From: Turicibacter bilis
GTDB taxonomy: Bacteria > Bacillota_I > Bacilli_A > MOL361 > Turicibacteraceae
Length of the DNA stretch: 64,000 nucleotides
Reading direction: 5' to 3'
Assembly (NCBI RefSeq): GCF_024499055.1
Contig: NZ_CP071249.1
Location: forward strand, 1,341,001-1,405,000
Part shown: in pieces, positions 23,577 to 56,845 of the stretch
How positions within the stretch are numbered: the first letter of the stretch is position 1
How the letters are laid out: every line of letters starts with the position of its first letter
Program-made: the position numbers and the translations under genes
Notes under the pieces: model-generated
Database searches by the model: none
Told to the model about the DNA's origin: nothing
The model's input: only the letters and a program-made list of their open reading frames with translations

Positions 23577-25343
23577 TCATTCCATCATAGAATCGGATAC
23601 CTCATCTAACAAACTCAAGCGCAAAACCTCTCCCGTATAAATCAGATTGGGATTATTAATTTCATTTAAGTTCACTAATTCATTCACTGTTGTTCCATAT
23701 CGAGCTGCAATTTCTGATAATGTATCTCCACTTTGTACCGTATAAGTTGCCACTGATGCACTACTTGATCCGCTCACATTCCCTCGAATTCTCAACACTT
23801 CTCCTGGATAAATCAGGTTCGGATTACTAATCTCATTTAAGTTCACTAATTCATTCACTGTTGTTCCATATCGAGCTGCAATTTCTGATAATGTATCTCC
23901 ACTTTGTACCTTATATATTGTTAGTGAAGAACTACTTGATCCAATCATTCTTCCTCGAATTCTCAACACTTCTCCTGGATAAATCAAATCCAGATTACTA
24001 ATTCCATTTAAGCTGACTAATCTATTCACTGTTGTTCCATATCGAGCTGCAATTTCTGATAATGTATCTCCACTTTGTACCGTATAAGTTGCCACTGATC
24101 CGCTTACATTCCCTCGAATTCTCAACACTTCTCCCGGATAAATTAAATTTGGATTACTAATTCCATTTAAGCTCATCAACTCATTTACCGTTGTTCCATA
24201 TCGAGCTGCAATTTCTGATAATGTATCTCCGCTCTGTACCTTATATATTGTTAATGAAGAACTACTTGATTCACTCACTCTTCCTGGGATTCTCAACACT
24301 TCTCCCGGATAAATTAAATTGGGATTACTAATTCCATTTAAGCTCATCAACTCATTTACCGTTGTTCCATATCGAGCCGCAATTTCTGATAATGTATCTC
24401 CACTCTGTACCTTATATATTGTTAGTGAAGAACTACTTGATTCACTCACTCTTCCTGGGATTCTCAACACTTCTCCCGGATAAATTAAATTTGGATTACT
24501 AATTCCATTTAAGCTTATCAACTCATTTACCGTTGTTCCATATCGAGCCGCAATTTCTGATAATGTATCTCCGCTCTGTACCGTATACGTTGTCACCAAA
24601 GTTGAAGATTCACTTGGATTAGATGGCTTTTGTTCTTCAGGTACACTTGAAACAGGTGTCGAAACATCAGATAAGAAAATTCCATCCGTAAAATAATCTA
24701 AATCAACTGAGCTTCCATCAATTCCAGAAATAATTCCGGTATCACTATACTGAAATCCAACCCAGTCTAACCATGTACCATTTGCTTGTGGACTCTCTAC
24801 TCCATATTCTGCCACCCAAAGTGGATATTGGGCAATTGTCTCATCCCAAATGTTTATCGCATTTGATGTATCACTATAAACGACGACTTCTTTTCCACTT
24901 AATGACTCTACGGTCTGTAAAAAAGCTAATCCTATCTCATTGATTTGATTTCGCGATAAATTACCAAAATACTCAAAATCCATGGCTAATCGACAATCAA
25001 TCGTTTTTCCTTCAAGATTCGATACAAAAAAGGCCGCCTCCGATTGTGCTTCCTCTACCGTTGTCGCTGTCACATAATGATAAACCCCAACCTTTAATCC
25101 AGCATCCGTCGCCTTCTTATAATTCGTCTCGAAATACGGATCTACAGAGTAACCTTCACTCGACTTAATATAAACAACCTCAATCCCAGACTGACTCACA
25201 GCTTCAAAATTAATATTGCCCTGCCACTGGCTCACATCAATTCCATCATATAACAACTCGCTACTTGGCCCAAAAGCTAAACCTGTCTTTCCAATAAAGA
25301 GACATGTGATGACCCCCCCCATCACAACAAAACCTTTCTTCAT
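23577..25343 (-). CDS. Secreted GH25 lysozyme with six LysM repeats
   Basis: 588-residue exported muramidase. It has a signal peptide at residues 1-25, then a GH25 domain (~30-225) with [11 protein letters not shown], the catalytic-site strand [18 protein letters not shown] and WVAEYG. Six LysM domains follow (core [18 protein letters not shown]), spaced by Ser-rich linkers, for peptidoglycan binding. It would cut the beta-1,4 bond between MurNAc and GlcNAc. I start at the ATG at 25343, preceded by AAGGAGGG, rather than the ATG eight codons upstream. The signal-peptide codons contain a run of eight G (25313-25320 on the plus strand as C8), a potential frameshift hot spot. Confidence 0.92.
23590..24600 (-). 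repeat. Six LysM-encoding tandem repeats
   Basis: Six near-identical LysM units of about 46-55 codons, several of them over 90 percent identical by eye at DNA level (for example the units ending near 24290 and 24470). Suited to copy-number change by recombination. Confidence 0.9.
25313..25320 (-). repeat. Homopolymer G8 in the lysozyme signal-peptide codons
   Basis: Eight consecutive C on the plus strand (G on the coding strand) in the 5' part of the GH25-LysM gene. A one-base slip would frameshift the gene after about ten codons. Confidence 0.95.
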
Positions 25344-25448
25344 AAATAGCCCTCCTTGTCCATTCATTCTCTATAGCCTATGAAGAAACATCAAAAAAAA
25401 TACCCTCTACCAATCAGTAGATGATCCTCTCTATTAAAACTTCACCAT

Positions 25449-27737: not shown

Positions 27738-27989
27738 TTACTTACCTGATGAACCAAGCGCACCTGTTCCACGCTCAGATTCAATCTTTAATAAGTCTTC
27801 ATAACTCATTTCTTCAATCTGAAGTTTAGGAACTTCTACCATCATACACTGGCAAATTCCTTTTTCATAAGGATAAACAATACATCCTTCAAACTGATCT
27901 TTAACAGACTCCTTTGCAATCACTAAAGACTTTGTATTATGGTTCGTTAAAGCAATAAACCACTCACCACGATATCCCGAATCGATGAC
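27738..27989 (-). CDS. dut: dUTP diphosphatase, exon 2
   Basis: Second exon of a trimeric dUTPase. It starts at VIDSGYRGEW (motif 3, with the base- and sugar-contacting Tyr), passes through ALTNHNTK and QCMMVEVP (motif 4 region) and ends ERGTGALGSSGK (motif 5, the P-loop-like C-terminal arm). Joined to exon 1 (29534-29770) it makes 162 residues, the normal size, and hydrolyses dUTP to dUMP. The first 60 or so codons can be misread as a separate gene from the ATG at 27923; the exon in fact extends upstream to the intron boundary at 27990. Confidence 0.88.
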   Translation of the reverse strand, partial: VIDSGYRGEWFIALTNHNTKSLVIAKESVKDQFEGCIVYPYEKGICQCMMVEVPKLQIEEMSYEDLLKIESERGTGALGSSGK

Positions 27990-29533
27990 CGAATTGTTAC
28001 CCTAACAACTTTTTATTTGTTAGTTCTTACACTTTTCCATCGTGTAAGTCCAGCATACATTTTCACCCTCGACTTTACGTTAGGGTGGTGGAGGCTCTTG
28101 GGTAGATTATTGCAATCCCTAACTTACGCTCACTACCTATGCGTTACAGACTATATTAGGTATTATAGCCCTCGGTATTATCCAATAAATTGGTGGACTT
28201 CACCGATACACCCCACTTTATTACCTAACTATTTCTAATTAGGATGGCGTTCATTATATAGCTTTAAAAATTCAACACATTTAAGATATTTCCTATTTAA
28301 CCTTAAATTTTCTGAATCATGATATAGCATTTGTATAAATTTAATCTTCTCACTATTTTTACGAATAATCAAATTATAAAAATCATATTTATACTTTTCT
28401 TTTCTATTATCTAACCTTACATAACTTTCAATCCCATGAGTTCTAAGAAAGTTTTGAAAAGCATGCATTGTACATTCATTCCCACAGATAGATATTATCC
28501 AATTACTTGGATTCACTTTTCCACAAAGATAAATTGAACCATCTCCATCAAAATAACCACGTAAATAATGCCACATGAGTTGATTATCTATTAAATAAGG
28601 TACATATATCCATGTTTTTCGCTGAACTATATTATATTTCTCTAGATCATTTACAATTTTATCACTATTAATCTGTAAAGATATATATTTATTCTTAATA
28701 ATAGGTTTATACTCTGCTTCTGTATAGTAAAGAAAAGAGTCAATTATTTCCCTATCTTTTATATTAAATTGAAAGGATAACATCTTTAACTTATTTGGAT
28801 TTTGTTGATAATAGACACATCCATCTGAAGCAATTATCCCTAGAAAATATGCTTTATCTTTTGTGTCTATATTGAAAAAATAATCCTCATTTATATAGTA
28901 TCTCCTACACGTCTTTCCACTTAAATTATTGATTCTCCATGTTTTAGTAATAAGTGATTTAGAAACTCCTAACTCTTTACTTATAGTATTTGCCTTTTTT
29001 AAATGATAACTTTCTAAAACATAGTTTACTTCTTCTTTCGTTAAAGAGTTTCTATATTCATTCCTAAACCCAATAGATTTAGCATATTTGAGAATCGTTT
29101 TCTTACTAACTCTATAATGCTCTGCCATCAATGTTGATGATTTTAACTGATTATACAATTTAATAAATTCCTCTTTATCTTGTGGTTTCCATGAAATATC
29201 TTTCTTTAAAGTATTTCTATAATTTATCTTTTGAGCATAAGAATATATTTTTCGAACACTAACCCCATAATATTCTGACATATTTTTACCAGATTTTAAT
29301 TTTTGGTAATTAGCAATAAATTCATTCTTATCTGGATTAAATTCATAGTTCTGCATGTATAATCTCCTATCAATCTATATAATAATTGATAAATAAAATC
29401 AATTACATTAAGCAAGTCTAAGTTAAAAACTTAAAACACGCTAACATAATCTGACCATATAAGTCAAAATTTTTTCTACTTCATTATATGGTTATAATGA
29501 GATTATACTGTGTTAGTTATATAAATTTTATTC
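27990..29533 (-). ncRNA. Group I-type intron in dut (1544 nt)
   Basis: Removing this segment restores one dUTPase frame: GQRCG joined to VIDSGYRGE. The 5' exon ends in T (GGT) and the intron ends in G (TTCG), both group I rules. Near its 3' end the minus strand has AATATAGTCTG (28146-28156), matching the conserved P7 3' strand (S element). Upstream, TTAGACTTGC near 29420 could be its partner, with the endonuclease gene lying in the loop between. I could not convincingly assign the internal guide. Inteins are excluded because stops occur in frame. Splice sites are inferred, not proven. Confidence 0.78.
28235..29356 (-). CDS. LAGLIDADG homing endonuclease in the dut intron
   Basis: 373 residues. 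Residues 1-~145 carry three related HTH-like units (EFIANYQKLKSGKNMSEYYG, EFIKLYNQLKSSTLMAEHYR, and VNYVLESYHLKKANTISKEL). They are followed by the endonuclease domain with two LAGLIDADG motifs: YFLGIIASDGCV (~residue 182) and YLRGYFDGDGSI (~residue 268). Each motif has its catalytic acidic residue (SDG, GDG). It would cut an intronless dut allele to start homing. RBS AGGAG lies seven bases upstream. Freestanding in its own frame, not fused to exon 1. The frame is intact, so the intron may be mobile. Confidence 0.9.
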   Translation of the reverse strand: MQNYEFNPDKNEFIANYQKLKSGKNMSEYYGVSVRKIYSYAQKINYRNTLKKDISWKPQDKEEFIKLYNQLKSSTLMAEHYRVSKKTILKYAKSIGFRNEYRNSLTKEEVNYVLESYHLKKANTISKELGVSKSLITKTWRINNLSGKTCRRYYINEDYFFNIDTKDKAYFLGIIASDGCVYYQQNPNKLKMLSFQFNIKDREIIDSFLYYTEAEYKPIIKNKYISLQINSDKIVNDLEKYNIVQRKTWIYVPYLIDNQLMWHYLRGYFDGDGSIYLCGKVNPSNWIISICGNECTMHAFQNFLRTHGIESYVRLDNRKEKYKYDFYNLIIRKNSEKIKFIQMLYHDSENLRLNRKYLKCVEFLKLYNERHPN

Positions 29534-29770
29534 ACCACATCTTTGGCCGATTCCTTTTGATCCTGTTGAGCCACGCTCTTTAATAATTGCGACATAGTCA
29601 CTTGAAAATGCTGATGCAATTCCTGTCGGAACTAACACCGTCTCATGAGGTTCAACTTTCATGTAATCCTCTTTAAAACAAGCATAAATATCAAATGCTC
29701 CATCTTCAACACGTTTTGATGGAATAATTGCTTCCGGTTTTACCTTCGCAAAATAAATCAACTGATTCAT
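29534..29770 (-). CDS. dut: dUTP diphosphatase, exon 1
   Basis: First exon of dut: starts MNQLIYFAKVKPEA with AAGGAG upstream. It contains motif 1 (RVEDGAFDIYA, with the catalytic-site Asp) and motif 2 (KERGSTGSKGIGQRCG). The exon ends at GGT, one codon before motif 3. Without splicing the message would stop two codons into the intron and lack the catalytic motif 3 and the C-terminal arm. It is the third gene of the nrdD-nrdG-dut cluster; spacing to nrdG is about 95 nt. Confidence 0.88.
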
Positions 29771-52160: not shown

Positions 52161-52257
52161 AAACTCTAAAAAAGATTATCTACCATAATCTTTTTTAGAG
52201 CCGGTTGCACTACTAACTCCGTATATTCCAAAGTGCCCACATACAGAATATACTTCC
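52161..52257 (-). promoter_or_regulatory. Terminator-coupled leader element, copy 2
   Basis: Minus strand GAAGTATATTCTGTATGTGGGC...GAATATACGGAGTTAGTAGTG...CAACCGGCTC, then a terminator (CTCTAAAAAAGATTAT...ATAATCTTTTTTAGAG, T7). GTATATTC/GAATATAC is an 8-bp helix; GAGTT pairs with GGCTC here and with GACTC in copy 1, a compensatory-type change. Terminator sequences of the two copies are unrelated while the leader part is conserved. Confidence 0.6.
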
Positions 52258-52337
52258 TCATTTCTCATCTTTCATCAAAATTTTATCATAAAGTAATTAA
52301 AAATACAATTATTTCCACAAATTGTTTATAAAAAAAT

Positions 52338-54665: not shown

Positions 54666-54983
54666 ATGAAAAAGCTATTAGTTTTACTTGGAATTGGAAT
54701 TTTATTATTTTACATTAGTCCTGTTTTTTTCAAAATGATTGGAATAGAGACGTTAGGATTAATGGTGATTGCCTTATTAGTTCTTTATCCACTTTATAGC
54801 TTAGTTGCCGGATTTATAGTACCTAAATGGAGATTAGTTTTTCCCTTATGTATTGGGCTATTATTTATTCCTGCCATCTATCTTTTCTATAATGAATCTG
54901 CATGGGTATATCCTATTCGATATACAATGATTGCCTATCTTGGAGCAGGCCTTTCATATATCAATCGAGTAGGAGATAATTAA
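54666..54983 (+). CDS. Small membrane protein, third gene of the sigma operon
   Basis: 105 residues, three to four hydrophobic helices, MKKLLVLLGIGILLFYISPVF at the start. RBS AAGGAG. 16 nt after the anti-sigma gene, so co-transcribed; possibly part of the signalling complex or a regulated product. A frameshifted paralogue lies at 50943. The stop codon abuts the 3' end of the group II intron on the other strand. Confidence 0.75.
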   Translation: MKKLLVLLGIGILLFYISPVFFKMIGIETLGLMVIALLVLYPLYSLVAGFIVPKWRLVFPLCIGLLFIPAIYLFYNESAWVYPIRYTMIAYLGAGLSYINRVGDN

Positions 54984-55003
54984 TTAATTTAATCATCGTC
55001 CTC

Positions 55004-55042
55004 TCACACCACCGTACGTACGGTTCCGTATACGGCGGTTCT
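55004..55042 (-). ncRNA. Group II intron domain V region
   Basis: Stem-loop GAACCGCCGTATACGG...CCGTACGTACGGTGGT, the catalytic-domain hairpin of bacterial group II introns, close to the intron 3' end as required. Confidence 0.8.
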
Positions 55043-55051
55043 ATTTTATCT

Positions 55052-56329
55052 CTAAATATGAACAGTTTGATAGTGGTCTAGTAGTGATACTAGACCTCTT
55101 CTTTTTAGTCTTTCATTCGTGATGGTTCGACATAAAATAAATGAGCGAGCGACTCTCGCATATCCTTTTCGGGTATTTGCCCATTCCCACGCCTTATCCT
55201 TATCGATTCCCAACCTCATTAAACTTCTATATTTGGTTTGAACCTTCTTCCATTGTTTCCATATACACATTCTTAATCGGAATCGAATATTTTTATCTAG
55301 ATTTCCACATACCGTCCTCATCTTAGCGATTTTAAAATAATTCACCCATCCGATGATTAACTGCTTTAGTTTCTTCAGTCGATAGTCAAAACTCACACTC
55401 CAACTTCGTCGGGTGAGTCTTTTTAATTTCTCTTTCACTCTCATGATCGATATCTGGTGAGGTTTAGCTTTGAACTGATAGGCATTTTTATCCCAAAAGA
55501 AACCGAATCCTAGAAATTTAATTCCACTTGGTCGCTCAACCTTACTTTTTGTCACATTGACTTTAAGACCTAGCGTTTCTTCAAGGTATTTCGTCATGCT
55601 TTTCATCACTCGCTTCGCTGCCTTCTCACTTTTCACTAGAATTAAACAATCATCTGCGTATCGGACAAAATTTAACCCTCTTGCTTCTAGCTCTTGGTCA
55701 AGTTCATTTAACATGATATTGCTCAGTAATGGGGATAGATTGCCTCCTTGTGGGGTTCCAATCACCGATTCTTTATATTCATCATCCATCATGACTCCAC
55801 TGACTAAGAATTTTCGGATGAGTGAAATGACATCTCCGTCCTTAATCGTATTTGATATCAACCTCATTAACTTATCATGGTTGACTTTATCAAAGAACTT
55901 TTCTAAATCGATATCAACAATCCATGTATACCCATCATTCATGAATTCTAGACTTTTAATAATCGCCATTTCTGCACATCGTCCCGGTCTAAATCCATAG
56001 CTGTTTTCATGAAACTTTTCTTCATAGATAGGGGTGAGAACTTGAGCCATCGCTTGTTGAATGAATCGGTCAACCACGGTTGGGACACCTAAATTTCGCA
56101 CACCCCCATCTGCCTTGGGAATCTCGATTCGTTTCACCGGTTTAGGTTGATACGAACGCGTACGAATTTGGTCCTTTATCTCTTCACCATTTTCTTTTAA
56201 ATAGTGTCCCAATTCATTAATCGTCATCCCATCCACTCCTGCCGCACCTTTATTACGCTTAACTTGTAAATAAGCTTGGTTTAGATTATTTGGGTGTAGG
56301 ATTTGTTTTAATAAATTCTCTGTGTTCAT
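55052..56329 (-). CDS. ltrA: Group II intron reverse transcriptase/maturase
   Basis: 425 residues. RT domain with GVDGMTINEL, RIEIPKADGGVRNLGVPTVVDR, YGFRPGR, catalytic NFVRYADDCLIL and KFLGFGF; then the maturase (X) domain (~300-425). No HNH endonuclease domain, as in IIC-type and other En-minus proteins that depend on structured or replicating DNA targets. Splices its own intron and reverse-transcribes it at new sites. Start ATG at 56329 after GGAGGT. Intact. Confidence 0.92.
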   Translation of the reverse strand: MNTENLLKQILHPNNLNQAYLQVKRNKGAAGVDGMTINELGHYLKENGEEIKDQIRTRSYQPKPVKRIEIPKADGGVRNLGVPTVVDRFIQQAMAQVLTPIYEEKFHENSYGFRPGRCAEMAIIKSLEFMNDGYTWIVDIDLEKFFDKVNHDKLMRLISNTIKDGDVISLIRKFLVSGVMMDDEYKESVIGTPQGGNLSPLLSNIMLNELDQELEARGLNFVRYADDCLILVKSEKAAKRVMKSMTKYLEETLGLKVNVTKSKVERPSGIKFLGFGFFWDKNAYQFKAKPHQISIMRVKEKLKRLTRRSWSVSFDYRLKKLKQLIIGWVNYFKIAKMRTVCGNLDKNIRFRLRMCIWKQWKKVQTKYRSLMRLGIDKDKAWEWANTRKGYARVARSFILCRTITNERLKRRGLVSLLDHYQTVHI

Positions 56330-56845
56330 ATTTGTTACCTCCATGAGTTTCGTAACCTTCCATCCATCGTATCTATTTTTTTTTTAGATATGTGTCTTAT
56401 CACCTAATGGTTAATTAGGAAGGTGCAAGTATCATTTCTTTAACGGATAAAATAGTTCGGTCCTTCGCTCCTTTTAGTTTTCACTAACTCTCTTCACTAC
56501 TACGACCTCGGCTGACTTCTTATATTCCATGTTTACCTCACGGTCAACCTTTGGGATAGAATATAAGACCTCCCCGGGTAAGGTGTATTATCTTCCCTTC
56601 CATCTATCTGCCACATTTACAACATACATTTTTTTTCTGTGTAGCTATTGGACTTTAACTTGTTATGCAGTCTTATCCTTGTATCCTGCCTGATGTGATT
56701 CCTGTTCGTCAGACCAGAAGTTTGCCCACGGACTTCCTTCAGATTCCTCCTCGCAGAGGACACCCTTGTCTTAGGCTATGTACTTTCCGCTACTTGGTCG
56801 TACTCGGGACTTTAACCCGTTAGATAATACCCATGCCGGGCGCAC

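Follow-up and report, generated by a model that had tools for sequence, protein, structure and literature searches.

Chromosomal dut of Turicibacter bilis is very probably interrupted by an IA-like group I intron of phage type that encodes a LAGLIDADG homing endonuclease

In the window analyzed here, a stretch of 64,000 nucleotides from Turicibacter bilis, the dUTPase gene dut is split directly in front of the codons for catalytic motif 3. The questions raised by this locus are what kind of element has been inserted and whether its exact removal yields a complete dUTPase. Without splicing, the reading frame meets a stop two codons past the junction (GGT GAA TAA). Joining 29534 to 27989, by contrast, creates a protein of 162 amino acids that matches the Pfam dUTPase family with 48.2 bits (E 1.2e-12), while the two halves alone score 20.3 and 16.3 bits, both under the family cut-off. 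The split is thus located where the initial annotation had placed it. In all probability, as set out below, the chromosomal dut gene was entered by an IA-like group I intron of phage type that carries the gene for a LAGLIDADG homing endonuclease.

The interrupted dut gene and its uninterrupted relatives

Seven further genomes from the family, four of them congeneric, each contain a single, uninterrupted dut gene (identity 71-91%), for which a search in sister strains had been suggested. In six of these seven the intact junction GQR(C/A)GV(I/V)DSGYRG was read directly, and the matches in sister genomes start exactly at 27989 in two cases (G001 and G005) and within a few bases in the others. The junction is therefore shown, computationally, by comparison. 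It is ambiguous by a single base; since the U.G rule for group I introns demands an exon ending in U and an intron ending in G, the position given in the initial annotation, which had also pointed out the terminal T of the 5' exon and the terminal G of the intron, was chosen. The gene nrdG adjoins dut in four congeners and nrdD resides about 2-8 kb from it in four congeners, so dut is regarded as a chromosomal core gene. A second intact dut, which would mark the copy studied here as dead according to the initial annotation, was searched for in the whole genome and none was found. Among the genomes compared, the insert is specific to the source lineage. A literature search of incomplete coverage did not retrieve any published case of an intron in dut.

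Core structure and covariation

Relatives were collected by BLAST with the 3' 261 nt of the intron, which led to homologous DNA in phages of Alicyclobacillus, Bacillus and Clostridioides, in crAss-like phages and in others; these sequences were aligned to define the core (Table 1). Scanning viral contigs with two patterns yielded at least 120 stretches with one and 74 with the other, and 70 distinct cores among the matches listed were aligned by MAFFT without fitting to a structure. P7 is paired in 100% of the 70 cores, as GCATA/TATGC, GCGTA/TACGC or GAGTA/TACTC. Across the bulged base, its outer pair is formed by A-U, G-C or C-G in 70/70 cores, whereas the neighboring column, serving as a control without bulge, pairs in 0%. 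The pair G28142-C28053 beside the bulged base is invariant, as is expected for the guanosine-binding site. In P3, 95% of the cells are paired and two-sided changes occur in six of six pairs. P3 and P7 are interleaved and cannot nest, and the presence of two-sided changes in both of them identifies the structure as that of a group I intron. P6 aligns poorly across subclasses (52% paired) and has support only within the window's own subclass.

Table 1. Features of the interrupted dut locus (positions in the window)
Feature	Position	Strand	Remarks
dut exon 1	29534..29770	-	79 codons; ends ...GQRCG
P1 5' strand GUGGU	29534..29538	-	end of exon 1; U29534.G28248 pair
Group I intron, 1544 nt	27990..29533	-	omega-G at 27990
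Masking arm GTATAATCTC	29499..29508	-	perfect 10-bp complement of 29366-29357 (Shine-Dalgarno end and spacer)
Shine-Dalgarno AGGAG of endonuclease gene	29364..29368	-	
LAGLIDADG homing endonuclease gene	28235..29356	-	373 aa and stop; in P1 loop; end overlaps guide and P2
Internal guide sequence GCCAU (P1 3' strand)	28244..28248	-	directly 5' of P2
P2 hairpin CCTAATTAGAAATAGTTAGG	28224..28243	-	contains endonuclease stop codon
P3 5' strand GUGGGG	28211..28216	-	alignment of 70 cores
P4 enclosing P5	28171..28207	-	P4 28207-28202 with 28176-28171; P5 28198-28180
P6 hairpin	28149..28170	-	GGCTATA-ATACCTAA-TATAGTC; 3' strand = AATATAGTC
R-equivalent AACGCATA	28138..28145	-	P7 5' strand GCATA 28142-28138; bulged C28143; outer pair A28144-U28052
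P7.1, extra IA-type helix between P7 and P3	28101..28137	-	28137-28133 with 28105-28101
P3 3' strand CUCCAC	28088..28093	-	alignment of 70 cores
P8 hairpin	28064..28087	-	93.3% paired
S-equivalent AAAATGTATGCT	28052..28063	-	P7 3' strand TATGC 28057-28053
P9 hairpin	28026..28048	-	94.5% paired
P9.1 hairpin	28002..28023	-	conserved AUAAAAAG loop, then conserved UAACA; 99.3% paired
dut exon 2	27738..27989	-	starts VIDSGYRGE (catalytic motif 3)

The named structure, comprising P7, P7.1, P8, P9 and P9.1, was tested on 25 diverse sequences. Here, 97.3% of the cells are paired, versus 68.5% (sd 1.2) in shuffles and 29-48% in slid controls, two-sided changes affect 24 of 30 pairs and the covariation score amounts to 0.746, versus 0.194 (sd 0.017) in shuffles and at most 0.166 in slid controls. 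P7.1, the extra helix of IA introns, is paired in 100% of the cells with two-sided changes in four of its five pairs. In the alignment of L013, L015 and L016, a P7.2 was seen by eye. The match of the window to the core model shows that all core helices are intact and that every consensus pair has been kept.

Covariation across the relatives, together with the intronless sister genes, hence supports a group I intron with its own endonuclease in dut. The initial annotation had reached the same conclusion, albeit partly for a wrong reason: the element AATATAGTC (28157-28149), put forward there as S-like, is the 3' strand of P6 and changes jointly with its 5' strand (GGCTATA/TATAGTC in the window, AGCAGTA/TACTGTT in L012, TGCTATA/TATAGTA in L186). 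The S-equivalent is found in AAAATGTATGCT.

A group II intron does occur elsewhere in the window, and one may ask whether the dut insert is likewise of this type, an IStron or a plain mobile element that does not splice. The covariation of P3 and P7, which demonstrates a group I core, already refutes this. Moreover, the group II models that match at 54964-56760 have no match at the dut insert, a transposase is lacking, the LAGLIDADG gene is the only long open reading frame on the sense strand, and exact removal of the insert restores dut. We consider such another kind of insertion to have virtually no probability.

The U.G pair at the 5' splice site (U29534.G28248) and the omega-G at 27990 recur in the relatives with readable frames (L013, L014, L016 and L186), all of which have T as the last exon base and G as the last intron base. 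These introns reside in a tape-measure-like gene (L013 and L016), in the Walker A region of a helicase (L014) and in that of an FtsK-like protein (L186; GETGSG/KSRLLL). As in the window, the guide is situated directly 5' of P2 in L009, L013, L014, L016 and L186. Exon end and guide show a compensatory change in P1, GGU/GCC in the window, L014 and L186 versus GCU/GGC in L009, L013 and L016. P1 comprises only 5-6 bp in the window, however, and in some relatives it is shorter, with just three pairs. A potential extension of P1, 29524-29515 with 28263-28254 (9/10 pairs), was discarded, because it is equaled by 37% of shuffles and is no better than chance.

The core model, termed R1, matches the window with 127.3 bits, the window itself being one of the 25 seed sequences, and this is the sole match in the genome. 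A scan of 392 genomes of the phylum with R1, the strict filters of which can lose weak matches, resulted in matches only in the source genome and in G058, where the copy (L009) seems to lie within a phage tail gene as judged by eye. It is thus likely that the dut intron derives from a phage, and it probably arrived in the chromosomal gene only recently. An exact core pattern has no match in the genome contigs; a short pattern match in G006 (L221) is not accompanied by a match of R1 in that genome.

The endonuclease and the control of its translation

The open reading frame 29356-28235 is uninterrupted, in agreement with the initial annotation. The encoded protein belongs to LAGLIDADG_3 (PF14528, 4.8e-9) and to the phage family phrog_4645 and contains two LAGLIDADG motifs, LGIIASDG and LRGYFDGDG. 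Residues D178, D270 and D272 are invariant in 22 proteins, that is the protein from the window and 21 relatives taken from loci with the same intron core. Three helix-turn-helix repeats were recognized by eye in the N-terminal part (about residues 10-142). The predicted structure has a mean pLDDT of 87.8, and residues 162-373 match the folds of PI-PfuI (Z 20.8; 1dq3, 189 residues, rmsd 2.6), I-DmoI (Z 16.4) and I-AniI (Z 15.1). With its conserved catalytic residues and predicted fold, the endonuclease looks intact. It was not found in four other genomes of the genus. Peptide-pattern searches of the genome contigs and the viral contigs did not detect relatives, which were reached via the RNA core instead, and a sequence search of the PDB gave a chance match only. 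An internal promoter for the endonuclease gene was not found on the sense strand.

It could be argued that the group I intron has decayed or is defective in splicing and that dut is dead or poorly expressed. The early stop in the unspliced RNA and the lack of an Rfam match would fit this reading. It is nevertheless very unlikely, as every core helix and all consensus pairs of the family are preserved, the endonuclease retains an uninterrupted frame and its catalytic residues, exon 2 has kept 85% DNA identity to sister dut, and there is no second dut that could cover the loss.

Another proposal, to which we assign a small probability, albeit a somewhat greater one, is that the endonuclease doubles as a maturase required for splicing, similar to I-AniI or the bI3 maturase. 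The predicted fold indeed matches both proteins (1p8k, Z 15.1, and 2ab5, Z 14.1, respectively), but pure endonucleases match at least equally well, and the catalytic aspartate is conserved. Furthermore, the same core is kept in L013 and L016, which lack an endonuclease gene altogether, and in L012 and L018, where P5 houses an unrelated one. Ribozyme and endonuclease are therefore best viewed as partly independent partners. Some relatives carry the endonuclease in the loop of P5 rather than that of P1, for example L012 (HNH-like), L018 (GIY-YIG-like) and L011 (LAGLIDADG), all types having been assigned by eye. Comparison of these loci suggests that one ribozyme clade has captured endonucleases repeatedly and independently.

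The favored reading, a mobile group I intron, implies the following course of events. The core (P3-P9) of the transcribed intron would fold, and exogenous guanosine bound in P7 would attack after U29534, which is kept in place on GCCAU by P1. The exon end thus released would then attack after the omega-G at 27990, giving rise to a continuous dut mRNA (GQRCG/VIDSGYRGE). Unspliced RNA would serve as the template for the endonuclease, which would cut intronless dut close to the junction; repair of the break would then insert a copy of the intron (homing). Keeping ribosomes off the core should matter, since the endonuclease gene extends across the guide into P2: the guide falls within the last codons (...ERHPN*) and the stop codon within P2, just as in L186. 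Both the stop immediately downstream of the 5' splice site and masking of the Shine-Dalgarno sequence may serve this end.

The masking arm is predicted to pair with a probability of 0.96-1.0, a 10-bp complement is attained by only 0.04% of Markov resamples, and the 5' portion of the intron is predicted to fold more stably than shuffled versions (z -3.63). In the predicted folds of relatives the Shine-Dalgarno sequence is largely paired in L014 and unpaired in L186, so the mask is not clearly conserved as a family-wide feature. For T4 td/I-TevI, a stop near the 5' splice site, an open reading frame overlapping the core and a masked ribosome-binding site have been described, and masking protects splicing (PMC3014915, PMC3073962). 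By analogy, an I-TevI-like translational control may operate in the dut intron.

Relation to known introns and significance

The dut intron resembles IA-type phage introns with endonuclease genes (T4 td/I-TevI; Bastillevirinae, PMC11878797; Jug phages, PMC12363816) in its group I core with the extra P7.1 and in its insertion at a conserved codon of a gene for nucleotide metabolism. The open reading frame overlapping the core, the stop just past the 5' splice site and the masked ribosome-binding site are likewise shared (PMC3014915, PMC3073962). It differs from them by a P7 of the RGCAUA/UAUGCY consensus type, the lack of an RF00028 match, a reading frame in the P1 instead of the P6 loop, a LAGLIDADG instead of a GIY-YIG endonuclease and chromosomal dut as host gene. 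The intron in L186 (IMG/VR 3300002498_000005, FtsK-like gene) has the same core class, the same place for the endonuclease, a stop inside P2 and a phrog_4645 protein; however, it is inserted at a Walker A codon, its endonuclease is 28% identical and its Shine-Dalgarno sequence is unpaired in the predicted fold. The endonuclease shares the common fold (residues 162-373) and the two motifs with the catalytic aspartates with PI-PfuI, I-DmoI and I-AniI, but carries N-terminal helix-turn-helix repeats and is less than 20% identical.

A second group I intron is present in nrdD, a neighboring gene of nucleotide metabolism (window 31840-31553, minus strand), about 2 kb from the dut intron. In contrast to the latter, it has a canonical S (GAAGATATAGTC) and a weak match to RF00028 (22.6 bits), contains no open reading frame and is not matched by R1. 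An intron at this site is also present in G001, with 88% identity, and in G004; nrdD of G002 and G003 appears to lack it. The copy in G004 (L228 390-1058, minus strand) contains a 222-aa open reading frame that is GIY-YIG-endonuclease-like by eye; on this comparison, the endonuclease appears to have been gained or lost within one genus. Group II intron pieces (RF02001, RF01998 and RF00029; minus strand) at 54964-56760 place group I and group II introns within 30 kb. A cyclic di-GMP-II riboswitch aptamer (69.2 bits) is located at 52190-52274 (minus strand), and the R1 match beside it is at chance level only. In C. difficile, an aptamer of this kind controls a group I intron. Finally, the region 23577-25367 (minus strand) encodes a lysozyme-like protein and, after it, six LysM repeats that by eye are near-identical and form a tandem array at the DNA level.

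The Rfam group I intron model (RF00028) does not match the dut insert even at E<=5, and a scan of nine relatives (among L009-L017 and L186) yielded no match at E<=0.1. The lack of a match is a point against the assignment, but RF00028 has been described as incomplete, with phage IA diversity extending beyond the current subgroups (PMC11878797), so that the miss is a test of the library and not of a defining ribozyme feature. As none of the nine relatives is matched, Rfam-based annotation misses the clade. Introns of this general kind are abundant in phages: 2,513 group I introns have been predicted in Jug phages, 37 of 76 in three genomes having splicing read support (PMC12363816), and crAss-like phages are intron-dense (PMC7886860). 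The kind of element is thus already known; the dut intron adds a member to it, situated in an unusual host gene and belonging to a clade that is otherwise met mainly in phages and is missed by Rfam.

More speculatively, and with less than even confidence, we suggest a large group I clade outside RF00028, perhaps even outside the accepted IA subgroups, that is characterized by a P7 of the GCAUA/UAUGC type and a conserved AUAAAAAG...UAACA 3' end and is common in phages of many hosts. The same tentative proposal holds that in dut, translation of the endonuclease across guide and P2 works against splicing but is restrained by the masked ribosome-binding site, such that dut expression would depend on the balance of the two.

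Genes split by this Rfam-invisible clade, in phages as well as in their hosts, are probably misread as truncated. The present alignment and covariance model would detect such introns. For the organism studied here, production of dUTPase would hinge on splicing, and a core gene of the chromosome seems to have received a phage-type intron recently.
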